From the NCBI RefSeq assembly GCF_003286915.1, contig NZ_QMFY01000014.1:1-64000 (forward strand): a stretch of 64,000 bases of DNA, written 5' to 3'. Within the stretch, counting starts at the first letter, position 1, and every line of letters starts with the position of its first letter. The notes beneath the pieces were generated by a model. The model saw only the letters and a program-made list of their open reading frames with translations. It was not told where the DNA came from and made no database searches. The position numbers were made by a program, and so were the translations under genes. Of the stretch, positions 1,479 through 33,343 are shown one piece after another. The DNA is from Pseudochryseolinea flava. GTDB lineage: Bacteria; Bacteroidota; Bacteroidia; Cytophagales; Cyclobacteriaceae.

Positions 1479-3950
1479 ATGCACACTCACACGCATGCCC
1501 ATACATTTCCGATTTACAAGGTGGAGAATGATTGCATTCTGTCGAAGCGCGGTGACATTTCCATTGCTTTCAAATCCACCTTGCCGGAAATTTTTACCCT
1601 GTCTGACAAGGAGTACGAATCTTTTCATCAGATTCTAGTAAAGGCTATTAAAGTCCTCCCGTCAAATACAATCTTTCACAAGCAAGACTGGTTTGTCAGT
1701 AAACGCAATGTCGCGGACTTTCAATACGAGCTTCCTTTTTTGTCGCATTGCTCGGAGCGCTTCTTTAATGAAAGACCTTTTCTCGACCATCATTGTAATA
1801 TCATCTTAACACGCAAGGCGTCAACGACGGCGGTCAATTCTTACGCGTCAAGTTTGCTGCGCGGTGACCTGGTGGTGAAAGATGTACTTAGTCCAATTTG
1901 GTTGCAAGAATTTTTAGATGCCACTTCTCAGTTCCAGCAAATTCTGTCCGACAGCGGGTTTATGAAACTATCGCGACTCTCAGGTGAAGACCTGATAGGA
2001 ACAACACGCAACGTTGGCCTTATCGAAAAGTATTGGTCCCTTAATGATTCGGATTTACCCATCGTACGCGACATTCAATTCAAGGATGAGCTTACGGTTG
2101 GTGATCAACGCTGCCAAATTTTTGCCCTTTCTGATGTCGAGGACCTGCCGTCGCTCTGCGGCGCACGCATTAACTATGATAGATTCTCAACAGACAGAAC
2201 AAAGTTTAGCGTTGGTTTTGCCTCACCGCTGGGACACCTGCTCTCCTGTAATCACATCTTCAATCAGTACATATTTGTCGAGGATGCGCAAAAGACGATC
2301 AAAGCATTAGAAAGCAAACGTCTCCGCTTGCAGTCACTCTCTACCTATTCGCGGGAGAATGCAATCGCGCGTGATGCGACAAACGAATTCTTGAACGAAG
2401 CGATTTCTGCACAACGACTGCCGGTGAAAGCACATTTTAACGTGTTAGTATGGACTACAGATAAGCAGGAACTTAAAGAAGTCAGAACGAAGGTTTCCTC
2501 GGCGATGGCACAAATGGATGCCGTCGCAAGGCAAGAGATCCATGGTGCGCCGCAGCTCTTCTGGTCAGCTATCCCCGGAAACGAATCAGATTTTCCAATC
2601 AACGATGCATTCGACACATTTCTGGAGCAGGCGACTTGCTTCTTAAATCTTGAAGGAGCATACCAGTCTTCATTAAGTCCCATCGGCATTAGGCTTGGTG
2701 ATCGTCTTACCGGAAAACCAATACACGTTGATATTTCTGATGAACCTATGCACCGAGGGATTTGTACCAACCGCAATAAAATCATCATCGGTCCATCGGG
2801 CTCAGGGAAATCGTTCTTCACCAACCATATGGTTAGGTCATACTACGAACAAGGGACGCATATTGTCCTTGTTGACGTAGGGCATTCTTACAAAGGCTTA
2901 TGTTCCGCCGTAAACGGCTACTACTTCACCTATTCCGAAAGTCATCCAATTCGATTTAATCCTTTTTTCATAAGCGAGGGTGACACGCTGGATACTGAGA
3001 AGAAGGAGAGTATCAAAACCTTGCTTTTGGCACTTTGGAAAAAAGGCGACGAGTCTTTTAATCGCTCCGAGTACGTAGCACTGTCCATCTCTCTTCAAGG
3101 ATACTACGCACACCTTCAGCAGTCGAAGGATATTATCCCATGCTTTAATACATATTATGAGTATCTGCGGGATGTCTTCATTGATGTACTTAAAGCAGAC
3201 AAGGTTAAAGACAAAGATTTCGATGTCGAAAACTTTCTTTACGTGCTGCGTCCCTACTACCGCGGCGGTGAATTTGACTATCTATTAAACGCCACAGAAA
3301 ACCTGGATCTGCTTCGCGAACGGTTTATCGTTTTTGAACTGGACAACATCAAGGATCATCCTATACTCTTTCCTGTCGTGACCATCATCATTATGGAAGT
3401 CTTTATATCCAAGATGCGCAAGCTAAAGGGCGTTAGAAAAATGATTTTGATCGAAGAAGCCTGGAAAGCCATTGCGCGGGAAGGTATGGCGGAATATATC
3501 AAGTATCTGTTTAAAACAGTGCGCAAGTTTTTTGGTGAAGCCATCGTGGTGACACAAGAAGTGGAAGATATCATTAGCTCCACTGTTGTAAAGCAAGCAA
3601 TCATTAACAACTCGGATTGCAAAATCTTGCTCGATCAAAGCAAGTATCAAAATAAGTTCGATGCCATTCAGGAACTGCTAGGACTTAGTGACAAGGAGAA
3701 AGCAATGATCCTTTCCATGAATAAGAGCAACGATCCGTCTCGAAAGTATAAGGAAGTATTCATCAGTCTTGGCGGGATGCTCTCGCGCGTATATGCAACC
3801 GAAGTTTCACTCGAAGAATATTTGATCTATACCACCGAAGAATCGGAGAAAGTGAAAGTGGAACAATATGCAGCGCGATATGGGAGTATCCAGAAAGGAA
3901 TTCAAGCGTTGGCAAATGAGATTCGAAACGCTAAACCCTCAAAGGCATGA
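1479..3950 (+). CDS. traG: TraG conjugation ATPase (VirB4 family)
   Basis: An 823-aa cytoplasmic ATPase powering the type IV secretion system. Walker A is GPSGSGKS at about residues 438-445, and the Walker B region MILIEEAW begins at about residue 655 with tandem acidic residues. The first half is the variable N-terminal domain of TraG/VirB4 proteins. Length and motif spacing suit the TraG family of conjugative transposons, which is distinct from the F-plasmid TraG. The N-terminus has an alternating His/Thr start (MHTHTHAH) before the family-like IYKVENDCILSKRGD. The stop overlaps the next start (ATGA), so translation is probably coupled. Confidence 0.95.
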   Translation: MHTHTHAHTFPIYKVENDCILSKRGDISIAFKSTLPEIFTLSDKEYESFHQILVKAIKVLPSNTIFHKQDWFVSKRNVADFQYELPFLSHCSERFFNERPFLDHHCNIILTRKASTTAVNSYASSLLRGDLVVKDVLSPIWLQEFLDATSQFQQILSDSGFMKLSRLSGEDLIGTTRNVGLIEKYWSLNDSDLPIVRDIQFKDELTVGDQRCQIFALSDVEDLPSLCGARINYDRFSTDRTKFSVGFASPLGHLLSCNHIFNQYIFVEDAQKTIKALESKRLRLQSLSTYSRENAIARDATNEFLNEAISAQRLPVKAHFNVLVWTTDKQELKEVRTKVSSAMAQMDAVARQEIHGAPQLFWSAIPGNESDFPINDAFDTFLEQATCFLNLEGAYQSSLSPIGIRLGDRLTGKPIHVDISDEPMHRGICTNRNKIIIGPSGSGKSFFTNHMVRSYYEQGTHIVLVDVGHSYKGLCSAVNGYYFTYSESHPIRFNPFFISEGDTLDTEKKESIKTLLLALWKKGDESFNRSEYVALSISLQGYYAHLQQSKDIIPCFNTYYEYLRDVFIDVLKADKVKDKDFDVENFLYVLRPYYRGGEFDYLLNATENLDLLRERFIVFELDNIKDHPILFPVVTIIIMEVFISKMRKLKGVRKMILIEEAWKAIAREGMAEYIKYLFKTVRKFFGEAIVVTQEVEDIISSTVVKQAIINNSDCKILLDQSKYQNKFDAIQELLGLSDKEKAMILSMNKSNDPSRKYKEVFISLGGMLSRVYATEVSLEEYLIYTTEESEKVKVEQYAARYGSIQKGIQALANEIRNAKPSKA

Positions 3951-4630
3951 GATATTTGCGAATCCAATTGATTGTCATTTTCTCCCTGGTCGGCTTGTTT
4001 ACCGCATGGCCCGTCGCAGAAGCTGCTGCCGCAGGATGGATCCAGGAGATCATCAAGAAAATACTCAAGGCGCTAGACTTGATGGTTCAGCGGTTGCAGA
4101 ATAAAACCATTGCGTTGCAGAATACACAAAAGGCTCTAGAGAATGCACTTTCGAAGTTAAAGCTTCGTGAGATTGCGGAATGGACCGAGAAACATCGGAA
4201 GCTTTACGCGGACTACTACAATGAATTGTGGAAAGTAAAAAATCTTCTCTCAACCATTGAGCAAACACGTGCGATCGTAAAGCGTCAAGAGCGTCTGGTC
4301 AATGAATACAAAAAGACCTGGAATATCATAAAATCGGATTCCCATTTTTCCGGGTGGGAAATAGATTATATGTACCGCGTCTATACCCGCATCCTGGAGC
4401 GGAGCCTCACCAACTTAGAACAACTGTCGATGGTGATCAACTCCTTCCAAACACAGATGACAGACGAGAGCAGGATGGCCATTATTGCGCAAGCTTCCGA
4501 TCAATCCATTAAAAATTTGAATGACCTACGCCAGTTTAACGAGCATAATATGCTCTTAAGCATCAGCCGTGCAAAAGACAAGCACGAGATCGAGTCTACA
4601 AGAAAGTTATATGACCTTACAAATGATTAA
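3947..4630 (+). CDS. TraI-like conjugation protein
   Basis: A 227-aa protein with an N-terminal hydrophobic export signal (about residues 5-27) and a long alpha-helical body likely to form coiled coil (repeated ALQNTQKALENAL-type heptads). Position between TraG and TraJ and the layout match the conjugal transfer protein TraI of Bacteroidetes elements. Its C-terminal half (YMYRVYTRILERSLTNLEQL) resembles the protein at 5289-5927 (YMKSVFDRLIKGSLDNLEEL), so the two look like distant paralogues. Translation is coupled to TraG by a 4-nt overlap. The exact role is unknown; VirB5-like periplasmic function is a guess. Confidence 0.75.
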   Translation: MRYLRIQLIVIFSLVGLFTAWPVAEAAAAGWIQEIIKKILKALDLMVQRLQNKTIALQNTQKALENALSKLKLREIAEWTEKHRKLYADYYNELWKVKNLLSTIEQTRAIVKRQERLVNEYKKTWNIIKSDSHFSGWEIDYMYRVYTRILERSLTNLEQLSMVINSFQTQMTDESRMAIIAQASDQSIKNLNDLRQFNEHNMLLSISRAKDKHEIESTRKLYDLTND

Positions 4631-4632
4631 GT

Positions 4633-5292
4633 ATGAAGATAGTTTTGATTTCGATTGTCGTGCTGAGCATGACGTCTGCTACCTGTCAGGCTCAATTTGA
4701 GGAGAAGCCTAATCAGGATGAATTGACCAAACAGAATCAAACGCAGATCAAGTATTTGTTTCAGCAGATCGCGCAGCTGCAATTATACCACAGCTATGTC
4801 AAACAAGGTATGACCATTGTCCGCGGTGGACTACGCGTAATCCATACCATCAAGAATGGAAAGTTTGAGTTGGATGAAAACGTGTTGGCAGCACTGGGAC
4901 ATACGAAGGCCGTAATCAATTCTGATCCACGTGCCAAGGCCGTAGCAGCATCGTCGCGCGCGATTGCACAAAGCGGTGGCAATGTGCAAACCATCTGCAG
5001 TAGCGGGCTTCTAAATCTTGGCGAAAGTCAATATGCGCGCGCTGTAATGGCCTCTCTGCTGAAGAGTGCCAGGGAAAATGAGGCGCATTTCGTTGAAATT
5101 AATCGTGATAGGCATTTTGAAATGACCGACGATGAGCGGTTACAGCAATTGCAAATGGCATTTGATCACGCACAGCGCTTGGTTGGATTCGCGAGAGTTT
5201 TCGAAGGCAATTTGCGTCTCGTTGTCAATCAACGACACCTCGAGTCCGATGAGATCAAGCGATTGAACAGACTTAACCAGGAACATCTATGA
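4633..5292 (+). CDS. Periplasmic helical tra protein, TerB-annotated group
   Basis: A 219-aa protein with a clear Sec signal peptide ending near TCQAQ and a helical mature region. In related tra clusters, proteins in this slot are often labelled TerB family tellurite resistance proteins, though nothing here points to tellurite. It contains QLQLYHSYVKQGMTIVRGGL and a later stretch MTDDERLQQLQMAFDHAQ that parallels the MSDQERLRAIDRI of its downstream neighbour. The stop overlaps the next start by ATGA. Probably an accessory component of the secretion channel. Confidence 0.7.
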   Translation: MKIVLISIVVLSMTSATCQAQFEEKPNQDELTKQNQTQIKYLFQQIAQLQLYHSYVKQGMTIVRGGLRVIHTIKNGKFELDENVLAALGHTKAVINSDPRAKAVAASSRAIAQSGGNVQTICSSGLLNLGESQYARAVMASLLKSARENEAHFVEINRDRHFEMTDDERLQQLQMAFDHAQRLVGFARVFEGNLRLVVNQRHLESDEIKRLNRLNQEHL

Positions 5293-5927
5293 AAACCTTG
5301 AGAATAGTTTCAATGAGTGTTCTCTGTCTACTCGCGTCTACTTGGTATTGCCAGGCCCAACAGCAGGAAGCAACGCAGCTTGCTTTGAATTTAGAAAAGC
5401 TAAGGCAGTTTAAGGCGATTCTTCAAAGTATGTATAAAACCTACCAAATACTCCAAGACGGATATGACAACATCAAAAACATCGCTGAAGGAAACTTCAA
5501 TTTGCATGATGCTTTTCTCGATCGCCTACTCAAGGTCAATCCCGCTGTAAAAAAATATCATAAAGTAGCGCGCATTGTCAGACATCAACAGCTTTTGGTG
5601 GAGGGATGTCGTCGATCGATTCAGCGCATTCGAGCAGATAATAATTTTTCCTCCGAGGATGTGCAATACATGAAATCGGTATTTGATCGACTCATCAAGG
5701 GAAGCCTTGATAACCTGGAAGAACTTCTCATGGTGATCACCGCTGCTAAGCTTCGCATGAGTGACCAGGAGCGGCTGCGTGCCATTGATCGCATTTCCGC
5801 AACACTCGAAACGAAGCTTCATGTCTTTAGACGCTTTGACAATGATTGCAAGATGCTTTCGAACCATCGGGCAAAAGCAAACAGTGAAATCAATACAACA
5901 AAACAATTACACCAAATCGAAATGTGA
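5289..5927 (+). CDS. TerB-annotated tra protein
   Basis: A 212-aa exported protein with a signal peptide ending near WYCQAQ. The mature part carries the hallmarks of the group usually annotated TerB in Bacteroidetes elements: LEKLRQFKAILQSM, YQILQDGYDNIKNIAEGNF, and RMSDQERLRAIDRI near the C-terminus. The body is helical. It is the best match to the family among the three consecutive related genes. Its stop overlaps the start of traJ by one base (TGATG). A function in conjugation is inferred from this conserved position. Confidence 0.75.
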   Translation: MKTLRIVSMSVLCLLASTWYCQAQQQEATQLALNLEKLRQFKAILQSMYKTYQILQDGYDNIKNIAEGNFNLHDAFLDRLLKVNPAVKKYHKVARIVRHQQLLVEGCRRSIQRIRADNNFSSEDVQYMKSVFDRLIKGSLDNLEELLMVITAAKLRMSDQERLRAIDRISATLETKLHVFRRFDNDCKMLSNHRAKANSEINTTKQLHQIEM

Positions 5928-7075
5928 TGTGCATTAGAGCTTTATTTATCAGTTGCATAATCCTCATGCCGATCGTTGTTCATGCACAGCCCAGCGATAT
6001 GCTAGGATTTCAGGAAGTGCTCGATAACCTCTATGATGAGATGCTGCCCTTGTGCAGTCAACTCATTGCCGTTGGTAGGGGAATTGCTGGATTTGCAGCC
6101 TTGTGGTATATCAGTGTCCGCGTGTGGCGACATATTGCCAATGCGGAATCCATAGACTTTTATCCACTCCTTCGTCCATTCGTACTAGGATTTTGCATCG
6201 TGAGCTTTCCCTCGGTGATCGCATTGATCAACGGTGTGCTAAAACCTACTGTCGCTGGAACTTCAGCAATGGTTGAGGGCTCTCGCTCATCCATCGCATT
6301 CTTACTGAAAAAGAAGGAAGAGGCCATTATGAAAAGTCCGATGTGGCAAATCTATGTCGGCAGCGATGGGGGAGGCAGTTTTGAAAAATGGTACGAATAC
6401 ACCTATGGCGAAGAAGACAATGCACTACCCAATGGGCTTGGCGATCACATGCGCTTTGCCATGGAGAAAGCATCGTATAGTTTTCGAAATACGATTAAAC
6501 AATGGATGTCCGAAGTGCTCCACATTCTCTACGAAGCCGCGTCCCTATGCATCAATACCATACGGACCTTCTATTTGATCGTGCTTGCCATCGTCGGACC
6601 ACTTGTATTCGGATTTGCAGTCTTCGACGGATTTCATAACTCTTTGACCATGTGGCTTGCGCGCTACATCAACATTTTCTTGTGGCTCCCGGTTGCCAAC
6701 ATCTTTGGAAGCATCATCGGAAAAATTCAGGAGAACATGCTCAAGATAGACGTCGCGCAAATAGAACGCTACGGCGATACGTTCTTTAGTACTGCGGATA
6801 CAGCCTATTTAGTATTTCTTGTCATCGGTATTGTTGGCTATTTCACTGTGCCCTCCATCGCGAGCTACATTGTGCATGCCGGGTCAGGCGGAAATTACTT
6901 AACCTACAAGTTGTCTAACCTTAGCTATAGCACCGCCCGCACTACATTTTCTTCAGCGAGCACCGTTGCCAGCACAGTTTCGGGCGCATTGACCGCACGC
7001 GGTCCAGAAGAAACTAAAAGCGACAATCCAAATGAAAAATCGGGCTACATGAAAGAAAAGATTTCGGGGCAATAA
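5927..7075 (+). CDS. traJ: TraJ inner-membrane channel protein (VirB6/TrbL-like)
   Basis: A 382-aa polytopic membrane protein. A signal-like segment ends near VVHAQ; further hydrophobic segments lie around residues 45-65, 85-108, 205-235 and 285-320, and the tail is hydrophilic and Ser/Thr-rich. The size, topology and the place before traK match conjugative transposon TraJ, the VirB6-like inner-membrane channel. The ATG at 5927 is preferred to a GTG one codon earlier. Confidence 0.9.
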   Translation: MCIRALFISCIILMPIVVHAQPSDMLGFQEVLDNLYDEMLPLCSQLIAVGRGIAGFAALWYISVRVWRHIANAESIDFYPLLRPFVLGFCIVSFPSVIALINGVLKPTVAGTSAMVEGSRSSIAFLLKKKEEAIMKSPMWQIYVGSDGGGSFEKWYEYTYGEEDNALPNGLGDHMRFAMEKASYSFRNTIKQWMSEVLHILYEAASLCINTIRTFYLIVLAIVGPLVFGFAVFDGFHNSLTMWLARYINIFLWLPVANIFGSIIGKIQENMLKIDVAQIERYGDTFFSTADTAYLVFLVIGIVGYFTVPSIASYIVHAGSGGNYLTYKLSNLSYSTARTTFSSASTVASTVSGALTARGPEETKSDNPNEKSGYMKEKISGQ

Positions 7076-7093
7076 TCATCAAACGAAAATAAA

Positions 7094-7711
7094 ATGTTTC
7101 AACAACTCAAAAATATTGACTCTGCCTTTCGCTACGTCAGAAGTTTTTCAATCATCACCTTCATCGGAAGCCTTTTGCTTTGCTGCTGTGTAATATTTAA
7201 AAGCTATCAAATCGTGCAGGATACACAAGAACGAATTTATATCCTGGCCAATGATAAGGCACTTGAAGCATTTGCTGCAGAGCGCAAGGACAACATTCCT
7301 GTAGAAGCACGTGATCATGTAAAAATGTTTCATCTGTTTTTTTTTACGCTGCACCCTGACGATCGTTTTATTCAGGATAACATTAGCAGGGCGTTATACT
7401 TGGCTGACGGTACGGCGAAAAAACAATATGATAACCTGCGTGAGAATAGCTATTACGCTAACATCATTTCTGGAAACATCAGTCAAGAAGTGGAGGTAAC
7501 GGAAATTCAAATTGATGTATCAAGTTATCCGTACCGGTTTCGATGCGAAGCGATACAAACGATCATCAGAACGACTTCGATCGCGACACGCTCCCTCATT
7601 ACGGAAGGGTACCTGCGCAACGTCGCGCGCTCAGATAATAATCCACACGGCTTTTTAATCGAACGGTGGAAGACGCTAGAAAACAAGGATCTCAAAACGC
7701 AGAATCGATAG
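7094..7711 (+). CDS. traK: TraK, VirB8-like conjugation protein
   Basis: A 205-aa bitopic inner-membrane protein: short cytoplasmic N-terminus, one membrane helix (about residues 17-37), then a periplasmic domain including FFFTLHPDDRFIQDNISRALYLAD and the terminal FLIERWKTLENKDL. These match TraK of Bacteroidetes conjugative transposons, the VirB8-like scaffold. The gene follows traJ after a short gap and precedes a TraL-position gene, preserving the canonical order. Confidence 0.92.
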   Translation: MFQQLKNIDSAFRYVRSFSIITFIGSLLLCCCVIFKSYQIVQDTQERIYILANDKALEAFAAERKDNIPVEARDHVKMFHLFFFTLHPDDRFIQDNISRALYLADGTAKKQYDNLRENSYYANIISGNISQEVEVTEIQIDVSSYPYRFRCEAIQTIIRTTSIATRSLITEGYLRNVARSDNNPHGFLIERWKTLENKDLKTQNR

Positions 7712-7715
7712 CCCT

Positions 7716-8090
7716 ATGAATAAACAAGAATATAAACCATCCGCGTCAAAGCTTTTGTCAGCATTTACAGCGAAGGTTGATTCTCGCTGGAAAGTCGCCT
7801 CACAATGGCTAACACAAAAATCAGATGCTTGGTCACGTACCACTAAGGCGATCATCTTATGGGTGGGTATCGCACTAGCATCTGCAGTTTTGTTGCATGT
7901 GATGTTTACCCCTGCAAACCTACATGTGCTCCGTAACATTTTAAAGCCGTCGATTCCAGAATTTTTTCTGCCGGATACATGCTTTGAGCGAATAGCACCA
8001 ATACAGCACTATAAAAGCCTAGATAGTTTGCTCAATGATCAATACCGTCACTTTGATTCATTGGTGAGGCATTATGTACCACGCAAATAA
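7716..8090 (+). CDS. Small membrane protein in the TraL position
   Basis: A 124-aa protein with a basic N-terminal cytoplasmic stretch, one membrane helix (about residues 45-67) and a short periplasmic tail. Position between traK and traM and size suit TraL, but I see no motif strong enough to assign the symbol. It begins 4 nt after the traK stop. Likely a minor subunit of the inner-membrane complex. Confidence 0.7.
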   Translation: MNKQEYKPSASKLLSAFTAKVDSRWKVASQWLTQKSDAWSRTTKAIILWVGIALASAVLLHVMFTPANLHVLRNILKPSIPEFFLPDTCFERIAPIQHYKSLDSLLNDQYRHFDSLVRHYVPRK

Positions 8091-8138
8091 ACAACACGTA
8101 ATCGTCATTCATAAACACTTTAAACACACAACACACAT

Positions 8139-9380
8139 ATGACACCACACACTGAAAACTATTTACGTCAGCGGAGATTCTACATGATTCTTCCTGCTTT
8201 AGTTCTTCCATTCTTAATCATGATCTTTTGGGCCTTGGGCGGAGGACAAGGAACGCCGGCGCAAGCCATGGAAAACACACCGGGTCTGAATCCTGAACTC
8301 CCCCAAGCTCAATTGCCAGACGATGACAAGGAATGGAACAAGCTAACCCTCTATGATCAAGCAAAGCGGGACTCGCTCAAATTCGAAGAGGCTAGGCGAA
8401 GCGATCCGTATTTTAAATTCACACATCTGACAACATCAATCGACACTGGCGCCACACGTTTTGTAAACAGCTCACTCGGAGAGAAGAACCCTGCCGATCA
8501 CACTACGTCCACAAGTGTCGAAAATAAGCTCAAACAGCTTTATGCAGAGATTGACGCAGCAACAAATTCCAACGACGAACTGTCTTCCAATGACATCCCT
8601 GCCGATGCCGTTTTTCCGACGGACATCGCAGCATTGCAAACGCAGATGGCTTCCTTGACCGCAAGTGAGGATCCAGAGCTTGCTAAAATTGACAATATCC
8701 TCGATAAGCTGATACGCATACAACACCCGGAGCTAGTTGTTTCCGCAGATTCAATACACGAGGATGTGCACGCCCTTCGCGCACGCGGCGATGATCTTGG
8801 TATCACAAATCTAAGTGATAGTACCGAGGGAGAGCTTTCAGTTGTCCACGATGACGCGCTTGTGATAAATCGGTTTTATGGACTTGATGATGTTTCTATC
8901 GATGAGAATCCGTTACCACTTGAAGCGGAAATTTCTCAGACGCAAACCATAACCTCAGGTTCCACAGTAGCACTTCGGATCTTACATGATGCCGTCGTTT
9001 CCGGAAAATCTTTGAAGGCCGGAAGCTTAATCTTCGGTGTTTGTAATCTTAGTGGTGAGCGGTTGTTGATATCGATCAAGTCTGTGATTTCTGATCGCAC
9101 AGTATATCCTGTCGCCATCAGTGTATACGACCTTGACGGAATGGAAGGCATACACGTACCAGGGACATTAGAAGGAGACATCATTCGTCAAAGTTCAAAT
9201 CAATCTATACAGGATCTTGATCTGCTTTCTATAAATCCGACCATGCAAGCGCAACTCGCCGACACGGGATTGAAGGCGGCCAAGACTTTTTTTAATCGCA
9301 AGGCGAAGCTTATCAAGGTTACAGTAAGCGCGGGACACAGAGTATTGCTGGTTGATAAAGGAAGCCGCCATGGGATATAA
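8139..9380 (+). CDS. traM: TraM, VirB10-like conjugation protein
   Basis: A 413-aa protein with an N-terminal cytoplasmic segment, one membrane helix (about residues 12-36) and a long Pro/Asp-rich linker. The C-terminal domain (about residues 260-410) shows the TraM pattern: SGSTVALRILHDAVVSG, AGSLIFGVCNLSGERLLI and a helix with LADTGLKAAKTFF. TraM is the VirB10-like protein bridging inner and outer membranes. The last 11 bases overlap traN. Confidence 0.93.
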   Translation: MTPHTENYLRQRRFYMILPALVLPFLIMIFWALGGGQGTPAQAMENTPGLNPELPQAQLPDDDKEWNKLTLYDQAKRDSLKFEEARRSDPYFKFTHLTTSIDTGATRFVNSSLGEKNPADHTTSTSVENKLKQLYAEIDAATNSNDELSSNDIPADAVFPTDIAALQTQMASLTASEDPELAKIDNILDKLIRIQHPELVVSADSIHEDVHALRARGDDLGITNLSDSTEGELSVVHDDALVINRFYGLDDVSIDENPLPLEAEISQTQTITSGSTVALRILHDAVVSGKSLKAGSLIFGVCNLSGERLLISIKSVISDRTVYPVAISVYDLDGMEGIHVPGTLEGDIIRQSSNQSIQDLDLLSINPTMQAQLADTGLKAAKTFFNRKAKLIKVTVSAGHRVLLVDKGSRHGI

Positions 9381-10212
9381 CTTGATCTTCCTCCGGTTAA
9401 TCAACCTCTCGACGTTGGTTGCTATCCTCACCGCGACATACAGCGCATGTCTTGCACAAGTTTTCCAGGACTCCGTTTCCGGTCATGACTATCGCATTGA
9501 AGTGACCTTCAACAAAACAACGAACTTGATTTTCAATAGTGCCATTGTCAGTGTTGATCGGGGCAGCCGCGATGTCTTAGCACAGCATGCCAGTAAAGCC
9601 GAAAATGTTCTCCAGGTGAAGGCAGGTAGAAAGGGGTTTGAAGAGACGAATCTATCGGTCATCACCGCCGCAGGAAATCTTTACAACATTATCGTTGAGT
9701 ACAAAGACAATCCAATGTTTCTGAATTGGCTCATTGGGTATCATTATAATCCTACGGTTAGTTTTTCAGATGAGCAGAATGCATGGGGACCATATGTCAA
9801 TCTCGCTACTGGGGCGGAACAAAATATAGCATCGTTGAAAACGAATGCTTATGGTATCACCCTTTCGGTGACCGGGATTTATACGGATGGAGAACGGGTA
9901 ATTGCCAGGATGAAATTGACTAATCGCAGCCCAATAGATTACCATGCTAAAGCTGTCAATTTTTTTGTGCGTGACATTCATGCCACTAAAAGAACTGCCT
10001 TTCAGCAACTCACTATTATGCCCTTGCACTTGCGTCCATCAGGTCCCATTGAAGTTGAGCACGGGCGTAGCATCGTGATCGTTGCTGTACTTCCGAAGTT
10101 TCCCATGGCCAAGGTGAGAAAACTTTGGATTGAATTCATTGAAGAAAAGGGAGGACGCTTGTTACGATTGGCCGTTCCGTATCGCGTCATCATGCGCGCC
10201 AATAGATTCTAG
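9370..10212 (+). CDS. traN: TraN, VirB9-like conjugation protein
   Basis: A 280-aa exported protein with a signal peptide ending near ATYSACLAQ and a beta-rich body including the TraN-like stretch KTTNLIFNSAIVSVDRGSRD near the mature N-terminus. TraN is the outer-membrane-associated VirB9-like partner of TraM. The ATG at 9370 is preferred to an in-frame TTG at 9352 because AAAGGA lies about 7 bases upstream, and the signal peptide then starts normally. It ends the recognisable core of the transfer apparatus in this window; TraO, TraP and TraQ homologues are not seen after it. Confidence 0.92.
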   Translation: MGYNLIFLRLINLSTLVAILTATYSACLAQVFQDSVSGHDYRIEVTFNKTTNLIFNSAIVSVDRGSRDVLAQHASKAENVLQVKAGRKGFEETNLSVITAAGNLYNIIVEYKDNPMFLNWLIGYHYNPTVSFSDEQNAWGPYVNLATGAEQNIASLKTNAYGITLSVTGIYTDGERVIARMKLTNRSPIDYHAKAVNFFVRDIHATKRTAFQQLTIMPLHLRPSGPIEVEHGRSIVIVAVLPKFPMAKVRKLWIEFIEEKGGRLLRLAVPYRVIMRANRF

Positions 10213-26076: not shown

Positions 26077-26110
26077 AAGATAGAATTGCCTTCTTAGGCA
26101 ATTCTATCTT
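26077..26110. terminator. Bidirectional terminator
   Basis: A perfect 14-bp stem (AAGATAGAATTGCC at 26077-26090, its complement at 26097-26110) with a 6-base loop that contains the stop codon of the minus-strand oxidase gene. It separates two convergent genes and can serve both directions. Confidence 0.8.
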
Positions 26111-30353: not shown

Positions 30354-30821
30354 ATGGAAAACACGAACGTCAACCCATTACTTCAAATCTCGGAAATCAC
30401 CTTACAGTATTATCCAAAGGTAAAGGCTTCATCCAGGCCTCGCATCACGAGCTCCGCAGACGCAGCGAATTTGTTTCGGCAATCCTGGGACGACGGAAAT
30501 ATTGAATTGCTCGAACAGTTTAAAGTCATGTTTCTTAATCGTGCCAACAAGGTTATCGGTATCCTCAAAATATCACAAGGTGGTATCGCTGGAACTGTTG
30601 CTGATCCGAAACTGATATTTGCTGCTGCATTAAAATCTGGCGCTTGCGGGTTGATTCTTGCGCATAATCATCCTTCGGGTAACTTGACAGCAAGTCAAGC
30701 TGATATCAACCTCACTCAAAAACTTTGCGACGGCGGTAAGCTCCTGGAAGTTCAGGTACTTGATCACATTATTCTCACACAGGAGTCATACTATTCATTT
30801 GCCGATGAGGGTTTACTATAA
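30354..30821 (+). CDS. RadC-like JAB/MPN domain protein
   Basis: A 155-aa protein consisting of the RadC JAB domain only; the helix-hairpin-helix part of full RadC is absent. The JAMM signature is complete: E54, then H104-N-H106-P-S-G, S114 and D117. Stand-alone RadC/JAB proteins are frequent on Bacteroidetes mobile elements and in variable islands, with unproven roles in DNA metabolism or anti-restriction. It opens the accessory cassette that includes the SRAP gene. Confidence 0.85.
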   Translation: MENTNVNPLLQISEITLQYYPKVKASSRPRITSSADAANLFRQSWDDGNIELLEQFKVMFLNRANKVIGILKISQGGIAGTVADPKLIFAAALKSGACGLILAHNHPSGNLTASQADINLTQKLCDGGKLLEVQVLDHIILTQESYYSFADEGLL

Positions 30822-30993
30822 CCCTCATCCACAATAGCCCTTTCCCTAGGTTCAAAACTCGTTGAGTGCTTTACACCCAATCGCCTTGCGATAAGTTTTT
30901 ATCTCCAAATACGCCGAGTGCTGCGATTTATTTCGCGTCGTGTGGTCGGCGTGTAGCGATTTTTTCACCGCAAATGTGGTAAATTCATTAAAA

Positions 30994-31022
30994 TGTCAAT
31001 ACTATTTTAAATAGTATTGACA
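30994..31022. promoter_or_regulatory. 29-bp perfect palindrome, probable operator
   Basis: Two 14-base arms (TGTCAATACTATTT at 30994-31007, AAATAGTATTGACA at 31009-31022) around a central T. The right arm contains the -33 TTG (31017-31019) of the next promoter, so a bound dimer would block RNA polymerase. No T-run follows, and the next gene starts 28 bases on. The position argues for a repressor operator rather than a terminator. Confidence 0.65.
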
Positions 31023-31047
31023 ACTAATAATATTAGTAATAGTTTTG
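31017..31047 (+). promoter_or_regulatory. Promoter of the SRAP operon, leaderless
   Basis: TTG (31017-31019), a 20-base spacer and TAGTTTTG (31040-31047) exactly match the Bacteroidetes -33/-7 layout. The ATG at 31051 starts 3 bases after the box, so the mRNA probably has almost no leader. A 6-bp inverted repeat (ACTAAT/ATTAGT, 31023-31037) lies in the spacer. Confidence 0.65.
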
Positions 31048-31050
31048 AGC

Positions 31051-31254
31051 ATGGAATTCAATAAGACGATTTTGGCGAGTTGGATTTTATCAGGGTACAG
31101 GCACATCCATTATCAAGCGTTTGGTGATTATGCTGTGGTATCGACAGATTTGTTGCTGTTGTCAACCGATAGTTATCTGATTTCGATATCAGATCTACAA
31201 GCGCTCGAAATGGCACAGGGAATAGATAATTTTAAGATATATGTGTTATCATAA
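31051..31254 (+). CDS. Small protein co-operonic with SRAP
   Basis: A 67-aa protein with a central GDYAVVSTDLLLLSTDSYLISISD pattern (compact mixed alpha/beta). I do not recognise the family. The ATG at 31051 is favoured over an upstream TTG because the promoter box ends at 31047. Its end overlaps the SRAP gene by 14 bases, so the two are co-translated. A role linked to the DNA-damage function of SRAP is inferred from this coupling. Confidence 0.6.
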   Translation: MEFNKTILASWILSGYRHIHYQAFGDYAVVSTDLLLLSTDSYLISISDLQALEMAQGIDNFKIYVLS

Positions 31255-31987
31255 ATCATTAAAAGTAAAACTTGAGAAGCTTGCTGAATATTATCAAGCG
31301 GAGTATGATAAAACCATGAGTGAGCTTTATGGTGATAATCCAATTTCTTATCATGAAAATGGATTCGATTTCAAAGCAACGCCGATTGTTACAGCGGGTG
31401 TTCCAAACGCATTACAGAATTTTAATTGGGGACTGGTTCCCTTTTGGGTGAAGGACGCAGCCGGAGGAACAAAACTTCGTGTGTCGACCCTCAATTGTAT
31501 CAGCGAAGAAATGTATGATAAGCCGTCGTTTAGGGATTCGGCAAAGGAAGGGAAACGTTGCTTGATACCAAGCACGGGTTTTTATGAATGGCGATGGATG
31601 GACGAAAAAGGGAAGACCAAGATTCCTTACCACATCCACTTTAAAGATCAGGAATTGTTTTCGATCGCTGGATTATATGCGAAGAATAAGAATATGGGTA
31701 CATCTGGGGATTACCATTCGTATGCAGTTTTGACGACCCGTGCAAATACGCTTATGACTAAAATTCATAATAGTAAAAAGCGAATGCCTGTGATTATTCC
31801 CAAGCAGTATGAAAAAGATTGGCTGAATCCAGCACTTTCAAAGGATGACGTACTAGCGCTTTGTAATGTCGTACATGAAATTGATTTAGATGCGCACACT
31901 ATTTCCAAACGCATCACCGACAAGAAGGAGAGTAGTGATGTGCCGGAAGTGTTGTTGCCGCACGTGTATGAAGAAGTTAGGGACTAG
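31241..31987 (+). CDS. SRAP family protein (HMCES/YedK-like)
   Basis: A 248-aa SOS-response-associated peptidase family protein, which forms a covalent thiazolidine link with abasic sites in single-stranded DNA. The key residues are present: Cys2 exposed after Met removal, N85 (STLNCISEE), E116 (GFYEW) and H176 (MTKIHNSKKRMPVI). The usual Ala/Arg after the Asn is replaced by Cys. It overlaps the 67-aa gene and shares its palindrome-controlled promoter, suggesting damage-induced expression. Confidence 0.93.
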   Translation: MCYHKSLKVKLEKLAEYYQAEYDKTMSELYGDNPISYHENGFDFKATPIVTAGVPNALQNFNWGLVPFWVKDAAGGTKLRVSTLNCISEEMYDKPSFRDSAKEGKRCLIPSTGFYEWRWMDEKGKTKIPYHIHFKDQELFSIAGLYAKNKNMGTSGDYHSYAVLTTRANTLMTKIHNSKKRMPVIIPKQYEKDWLNPALSKDDVLALCNVVHEIDLDAHTISKRITDKKESSDVPEVLLPHVYEEVRD

Positions 31988-32001: not shown

Positions 32002-32394
32002 ATGGAGAATTCGGATGGTCGTTTTAGAGGTGTAAGAGAACTAACGTTGTTGCCGGATGATATAGGAGAAGTCATGACACCGAGTGATTGTGCTAAGGCA
32101 TTCGATTACTTGGAGGGCGTCTTGCATATATCCCGCAATTGGCGAATGGACTTTGAACAGGAATTTTTGGCTCAGCCGCATGCCGTGAGTAAGCAGGAGT
32201 TTTTTATTCGTTTCACAGCAAAACATATCGATCCCCACTTGTGTGTGTTACTTCAGCGAAAGCAATCGCCTGTTCAATCACTGCTTCGCTTTCTTCTCAG
32301 AGATAGGATCGCTCAAAAAAAAACGAAAGGGATAGGGAGGCCGAACGATTATTACCTAAACCTTCTCGAGAAGAGACGAAAAACGCAGCGCTAA
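32002..32394 (+). CDS. Uncharacterised soluble protein
   Basis: A 130-aa basic protein of mostly helical appearance, with LLRFLLRDRIAQKKTKG near the C-terminus and a highly basic tail. No family recognised. A good ribosome site (GGGGAGG at 31987-31993) lies before the ATG and 14 bases separate it from the SRAP stop, so it is probably in the same operon. The basic tail could bind nucleic acid, which is speculative. Confidence 0.6.
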   Translation: MENSDGRFRGVRELTLLPDDIGEVMTPSDCAKAFDYLEGVLHISRNWRMDFEQEFLAQPHAVSKQEFFIRFTAKHIDPHLCVLLQRKQSPVQSLLRFLLRDRIAQKKTKGIGRPNDYYLNLLEKRRKTQR

Positions 32395-32668: not shown

Positions 32669-33343
32669 ATGAAAACTGTTGTTACTGCATTTGGTGAAAA
32701 GAAAATAGAGGACTGGGACGCAGCGTTAATCTCTATTCAACTAAGGCAAATATTGCAAGAGGTGCGCGCTGGGTTGATCGATAAGTTGCTGGCGGATAGT
32801 TTACAAAAATATATATCAACAACATTAAGTTTTACCGCCGACGCATCTGCGTTGTTAGAAATTAAAGGACGGTTGCTGTCGTTGCGCAATGCTGGTATCG
32901 ACATGGAGAATTACCGATCGGTTCTAAACGCTGTTTTGGAAAAAGAATGTACGTATATTGACACCGCGTTTGCTTATGCTGAGATTGATCATGTGATCAA
33001 ATTATCGATGCAGCCAGCGTTATATAAACATATGAGTACTTATTCTTTTGATGATATAGATTTGATACAATCAGTCCGACGCGGACTGATTGCTAAAATT
33101 TTGACCGAGCCTGGCATTAAAGATTATGTGCATTCTACGTACAATGCGCGATTAAACGATCATGCTAAGCTACACTATTTGCTCGATGAGCTCCGGAATT
33201 ATTTCTACAATACACCCATTGACTACGCGAAGATGCTTGACAAGTTCAAGCGGCAGAAGTATGAGAAGATTTCTGACGCTTGTCAAGAAATTTTTGAACT
33301 TGAAGTAGACGCGATTCTTGAAAAGCATTTTGTCCACAGTTAA
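32669..33343 (+). CDS. Protein with an internal tandem duplication
   Basis: A 224-aa soluble, mainly helical protein of unknown family. It contains two related units: about residues 32-93 (VRAGLIDKLLADSLQKYIS) and 136-199 (VRRGLIAKILTEPGIKDYV), followed in each by a Leu-rich helix and a conserved ID-x2-(N/A)(Y/K) region. A short spacer separates them. The duplication suggests a two-domain binding protein. It is on the same strand as the SRAP cassette. An earlier in-frame codon at 32660 is less likely than the ATG at 32669. Confidence 0.7.
   Translation: MKTVVTAFGEKKIEDWDAALISIQLRQILQEVRAGLIDKLLADSLQKYISTTLSFTADASALLEIKGRLLSLRNAGIDMENYRSVLNAVLEKECTYIDTAFAYAEIDHVIKLSMQPALYKHMSTYSFDDIDLIQSVRRGLIAKILTEPGIKDYVHSTYNARLNDHAKLHYLLDELRNYFYNTPIDYAKMLDKFKRQKYEKISDACQEIFELEVDAILEKHFVHS

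Follow-up and report, generated by a model that had tools for sequence, protein, structure and literature searches.

A predicted SOS operator beside a 29-bp palindrome upstream of an SRAP operon of Pseudochryseolinea flava

An exact SOS box lies within the predicted promoter

The 64-kb stretch of P. flava DNA analysed here (the window) appears to contain the control region of an SOS-regulated operon of four genes. We propose that a LexA-type repressor binds to an exact Bacteroidetes SOS box in the promoter, that a second dimer binds to the core of an adjacent palindrome, and that RecA triggers induction, a reading to which we assign a probability of roughly 0.78. It builds on the motifs found here, their spacing and rarity, a candidate repressor and the SOS genes preceded by boxes in the same genome.

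The box, CTAA-TAATA-TTAG (31024-31036, no strand; motif match, 23.8 bits), is the sole exact CTAA-N5-TTAG site in the window, and it is located inside the 20-bp spacer between the predicted -33 and -7 elements. CTAA-N5-TTAG is the operator of the non-canonical LexA that runs the SOS response of Bacteroidetes, a repressor described since 2021 and supported in other species by EMSA and mitomycin-C induction data (Sanchez-Osuna et al. 2021, PMC8565304). The genes of the predicted regulon include those of SRAP (COG2135, SOS-associated peptidase) and RadC, and several promoters carry two or more sites (PMC8565304). A literature search with the motif string recovered PMC8565304 alone, and a search combining Chryseolinea with the SOS response found nothing.

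The preliminary description of this DNA had overlooked the box and proposed the palindrome as a damage-response operator for a repressor other than canonical LexA. The damage operator and the non-canonical repressor gain support from the neighbouring exact box, whereas the palindrome as sole operator does not. The damage-response idea was thus probably right, with an operator and a likely regulator that are of a known kind. Judging from the sequence, the damage switch of the SRAP operon is most likely the known SOS box, 22 bases downstream of the palindrome.

The palindrome and promoter themselves were found as described. Inspection for inverted repeats showed a perfect 29-bp palindrome, TGTCAATACTATTT-T-AAATAGTATTGACA (30994-31022, no strand), with 14-nt arms that are 100% complementary around one central base. 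It overlaps the -33 TTG (31017-31019, + strand) of a predicted promoter whose -7 box, TAGTTTTG (31040-31047, + strand), follows after a 20-base gap; both elements were identified from the sequence and a pattern scan. The first ATG of the operon is at 31051, 3 bases past the -7 box. A scripted scan of both strands of the window for TTG-N19-21-TAnnTTTG gave five matches, of which this one alone is followed by an ATG at a distance of 3 bases. With the flavobacterial geometry, in which the box spans -12 to -5, the predicted start falls at ~31052, on the ATG, and leaderless transcription of the operon is plausible; leaderless mRNAs make up 5.5% of the mapped mRNAs of F. psychrophilum (PMC9723704).

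The palindrome lies upstream of this predicted start and should therefore act as DNA rather than as RNA. Another idea is that it serves the upstream RadC-like gene (30354-30821, + strand; PF04002), whose ORF ends on the same strand, as a transcription terminator or RNA hairpin. A stem could form, but the palindrome is rich in A and T and not followed by a T-run on the + strand, its first base is 173 bp beyond the RadC stop codon, it overlaps the -33 element, and another inverted repeat, at 30799-30834, belongs to the RadC-like gene itself. We regard a terminator as highly improbable.

The palindrome core resembles a second SOS box

The centre of the palindrome, CTAT-TTTAA-ATAG (31002-31014, no strand), shares the 4-5-4 layout of the SOS box, with one base changed per arm. 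It carries CTAT/ATAG in place of the exact CTAA/TTAG dyad and is counted here as acting like an SOS box, not as a member of the motif. We scored 63,972 positions of the window with a matrix derived from 95 exact boxes located elsewhere. The exact box (centre 31030, 23.8 bits) ranked first and the palindrome (centre 31008) second with 9.1 bits, the third site scoring 7.1. Among arm-shuffled palindromes, 1,562 of 200,000 scored as high as the palindrome, and with the matrix applied to spacer and flanks alone it ranked 11th.

The spacing of the two sites was compared with that of other SOS promoters. The core and the exact box start 22 bp apart, like the pair of exact boxes that precedes the SplB-like gene of the same genome and like two exact boxes of genome G294 that lie between an SRAP gene and a divergent gene of an unnamed family discussed below. 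In the 75 exact pairs listed from 98 genomes of the bacterial family, start-to-start distances are commonest at 19-22 and 31-34 bp: 37 pairs have a gap of 5-10 and 21 a gap of 18-21, and 10 share the 22-bp spacing. The variant CTAT-N5-ATAG occurs 2-32 bp from an exact box in 18 cases, in 17 of 245 genomes. Ten of these 18 have a gap of 5-10 (binomial p 0.0007; 9/17 and p 0.002 when the window is left out), compared with 2/23 for a control variant whose changed base is C or G (CTAS; Fisher p 0.0015), p-values that are optimistic since this gap class was picked after the histogram of exact pairs and the CTAT list had been seen. Four of the ten in-phase pairs precede SOS genes (SplB-like, DnaE-like, dinB and this SRAP operon), two precede other ORFs and four are inside ORFs, and none of the eight out-of-phase pairs precedes an SOS gene recognisable by eye. 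A reversed-pattern control for the CTAT pairing outnumbers the pattern itself, so that the spacing of these pairs, not their number, supports the pairing. Taken as sequence evidence, this suggests that the palindrome core is probably a diverged second SOS operator paired with the exact box.

Chance offers another account, namely that the CTAA box alone is functional and the palindrome a coincidence or a relic without a regulator. Substitutions in the dyad are reported to abolish repressor binding (PMC8565304), the dyad of the palindrome differs from the required sequence, single-box SOS promoters exist (9/30 loci of the unnamed family), and the palindrome is not conserved in relatives. Nevertheless, its 14-nt arms exceed the longest arms, of 8-12 nt, in all of 60 simulated 64-kb sequences (first-order Markov), and it overlaps the -33 element at a preferred SOS spacing. 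We consider this account quite unlikely. The palindrome is not the longest inverted repeat of the window; one with 15-nt arms and a 4-nt loop (26077-26110) sits between two convergent ORFs and is terminator-like.

The preliminary description would have the palindrome recur upstream of the same genes in relatives, and this was not borne out: with up to 3 mismatches it was found in 1 of 295 genomes of the bacterial family, the window's own, where its 29-bp sequence occurs once. Such rarity might be expected of a horizontally acquired operator. One may ask whether the palindrome serves a different dimeric regulator, borne by a mobile element or corresponding to a second S24 protein of the genome, and adds a second input compatible with SOS control of the operon. 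Its perfect arms extend over 14 nt, as against 7 nt in the window's SOS box, and the second S24 protein passes the NCBI LexA cut-off (L003; see below). Against a separate regulator, the spacing and the matrix score of the palindrome are those of an SOS box, no DNA-binding family was detected in the seven window ORFs scanned between 30354 and 34090, and the five best near-matches of the palindrome arms in the genome are all inside ORFs. This reading seems to us rather unlikely, and we retain a diverged SOS operator as the probable identity of the core.

Two further ideas were rejected. One was that the outer arms, TGTCAATA-N13-TATTGACA, define a regulon of their own; they gave 75 genome matches with up to 3 mismatches (25 for the reversed control), and the best five besides the window are all within ORFs. 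As regards a phage origin, the 21-bp core was found in two viral-contig stretches, inside ORFs in both.

The genome encodes a candidate repressor and a predicted SOS regulon

The genome (6.54 Mb) contains 57 exact CTAA-N5-TTAG sites. The reversed-pattern control yielded 244 matches versus these 57; the composition of this control differs, and spacing and the C/G variant were therefore used as evidence instead. Among the 50 sites listed, 12 sites at eight promoters precede recognised SOS-type or unnamed-family genes, as identified by motif scan and protein families: dinB, recA and an SplB-like radical-SAM gene (two sites each; 'SplB-like' is a label by analogy with PMC8565304), an HhH radical-SAM gene and uvrA (one each), two unnamed-family genes (two and one) and the SRAP operon (one). 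Of the remaining 38 listed sites, 28 fall within ORFs of at least 70 aa. One exact box overlaps the start of the gene for a 223-aa protein without Pfam family (L032 1535-1547, G000:C12).

The candidate cognate repressor is a 266-aa protein with HTH_3 and S24 domains (L004; PF01381, 48.1 bits; PF00717, 40.4 bits). Its gene is divergent from dinB with two exact boxes between them, an arrangement seen again in G361 and G235 (L093, L094). A search of the genome with the S24 profile revealed this one HTH_3-type S24 protein only.

The second S24 protein (L003 1249-1875, G000:C22) scores above the NCBI LexA cut-off (156.3 versus 110.95 bits), and its gene directly precedes a CD-NTase cyclase gene. 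By eye it has Cys-Gly at what we take to be the Ala-Gly site of LexA. It looks, from its sequence and genetic neighbourhood, like a defence-island LexA, given its match at the level of NCBI LexA beside a CD-NTase cyclase gene and the report in PMC8565304 that a search of complete Bacteroidetes genomes gave no homologue of LexA.

The operon and the patchy predicted SOS control of SRAP genes

SRAP proteins (YedK/HMCES) crosslink to abasic sites in single-stranded DNA and cap them. The operon starts, as had been described, with a 67-aa ORF (31051-31254, + strand) that overlaps the SRAP gene by 14 nt. The 67-aa protein, taken from the ORF list, belongs to no known family according to family scans. 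Relatives of it are encoded directly upstream of SRAP in 1 of the 290 other genomes of the order that were searched (G235, L006) and upstream of SRAP in a further locus (L131). The SRAP protein (31241-31987, + strand; 248 aa) matches PF02586 over residues 1-226 with 154.2 bits (cut-off 27.1). Its N-terminus reads MCYHKS, and Cys2, which follows the initiator Met and is presumably the catalytic residue, is invariant in the five aligned proteins. Next come a 130-aa ORF (32002-32394, + strand) and the gene of a two-domain protein of the unnamed family (32669-33343, + strand). By eye, and unscored, the former resembles ORFs of 115 and 110 aa located after SRAP in L116 and L117, respectively; among the relatives of the latter, the stronger ones are immediately preceded by SOS boxes. 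PADLOC detected nothing in five window proteins. Elsewhere in the window, a run of + strand ORFs (1479-10212) is conjugative-transfer-like by eye.

We looked for exact boxes within 700 bp upstream of 109 other SRAP loci, a set that includes some duplicates and excludes the boxed SRAPs of the window, of contig C8 and of G294, and found them in 6. None of the three closest SRAP relatives (66, 64 and 60% identity) has an exact box. One-mismatch boxes occur at 7 of 80 SRAP loci, not clearly commoner than in control stretches (3-6 of 78-80). One such box (15.1 bits) lies directly upstream of the 67-aa/SRAP pair of G235. In the host genome, the SRAP gene of C8 follows a boxed unnamed-family gene, and two more SRAP genes (C30, C7) have no box in the flanking DNA examined. 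With so few boxed loci, SOS control of SRAP, as predicted from boxes, is patchy across relatives, at which the wording 'several species' in PMC8565304 also hints.

An unnamed protein family is preceded by SOS boxes

The two-domain gene (ATG at 32669; protein scanned from 32672) encodes a duplicated domain, which occurs in 23 of 245 genomes of the bacterial family and in 5 of 84 genera. We examined 50 of 57 match rows. An exact SOS box is present no more than 150 bp upstream in all of the first 30 loci, with two boxes at 21 and one at 9; 4 of the 30, known to be boxed, had seeded the alignment, which leaves 26/26 independent of seeding, several of them from close relatives. In the further, mostly weaker rows, 11/20 have a box within 250 bp. 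Some of the single-box promoters of this family have a one-mismatch partner, and these weak partners are not of the CTAT-N5-ATAG kind. The own box-like sites of the two-domain gene in the window are weak (centres 32654 and 32659, 2.3 and 2.1 bits), and the gene thus probably depends on the operon promoter, as far as can be judged from sequence.

Under the thresholds applied, Pfam, NCBIfam and PHROGs gave no match for the window member. For two single-domain members, searches of NCBIfam and PHROGs gave weak matches only, the best being DnaD_Mollicutes (E 0.016, 15.2 bits, cut-off 100). An AlphaFold2 model of the family computed with 5 sequences has a mean pLDDT of 77.9 and a pTM of 0.52, and Foldseek found no match to it in the PDB at E <= 0.001. 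Genes of this family lie beside SRAP in seven distinct loci, including the window, most of which had been fetched for their SRAP.

These proteins may form an undescribed family of SOS effectors (~115 aa, in single- or double-domain form) that is usually preceded by one or two exact boxes and works with SRAP at damaged forks in at least some of these bacteria, and the window promoter may be a tandem operator in the course of divergence, with one box still exact and its partner drifted to CTAT-N5-ATAG. We put this combined view forward tentatively, as a possibility well under even odds, having slightly lowered our estimate because SRAP is found in the 1.5-kb flanks of only 3 of 30 family loci.

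A model for the operon and its relation to known systems

In undamaged cells, the 266-aa non-canonical LexA would sit on 31024-31036, between the -33 and -7 elements, and block RNA polymerase there. The site CTAT-TTTAA-ATAG, two helical turns upstream and over the -33 TTG, would probably be occupied by a second dimer, as suggested by spacing and similarity. Upon damage, active RecA would promote self-cleavage of the repressor and hence expression of the 67-aa protein, SRAP, the 130-aa protein and the two-domain protein, presumably from one shared transcript. In keeping with the function of its family, SRAP would then cap abasic sites in single-stranded DNA. For binding, cleavage and induction, the model follows the system of PMC8565304.

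The analysis assigns the operon of an abasic-site crosslinker, from a lineage of Bacteroidota so far unstudied, to a known SOS regulon and corrects how its operator had been read. This work yields a testable rule for paired SOS boxes, namely that they start near 19-22 or 31-34 bp apart and that CTAT-N5-ATAG is tolerated as a partner. It also draws attention to an SOS-boxed protein family whose window member went unmatched in the family databases.

The promoter shares with the CTAA-N5-TTAG regulon of Bacteroidetes the exact motif and a genome that encodes an HTH and S24 repressor beside dinB, with boxes before recA, dinB, uvrA and radical-SAM genes; SRAP is a predicted target in that regulon, and multiple sites per promoter occur (PMC8565304). 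It differs in that the second site is CTAT-N5-ATAG within a 29-bp palindrome and that the operon adds a 67-aa gene and the unnamed family. The diverged boxes of Weeksellaceae paralogues (TTAC-N5-GTAA in E. anophelis, PMC8565304) offer a parallel for a changed dyad with the 4-5-4 layout kept, and we likewise view the palindrome as a site that has diverged within the repressor family. In contrast, those boxes belong to a paralogue and precede the regulator's own gene, whereas the site described here is paired with a canonical box in a genome where one HTH_3-type S24 protein was found. As in the SRAP/YedK/HMCES operons surveyed by Aravind et al. (2013, PMC3765255), SRAP is in a damage-response context; the neighbours reported there include UmuCD, ImuAB-DnaE2, DinB and Ku/ligase, unlike the small proteins without known family encoded here. 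Finally, the E. coli-type LexA operator CTGT-N8-ACAG, as quoted in PMC8565304, is similarly palindromic and located in promoters of damage genes, but sequence, spacing and DNA-binding domain all differ.
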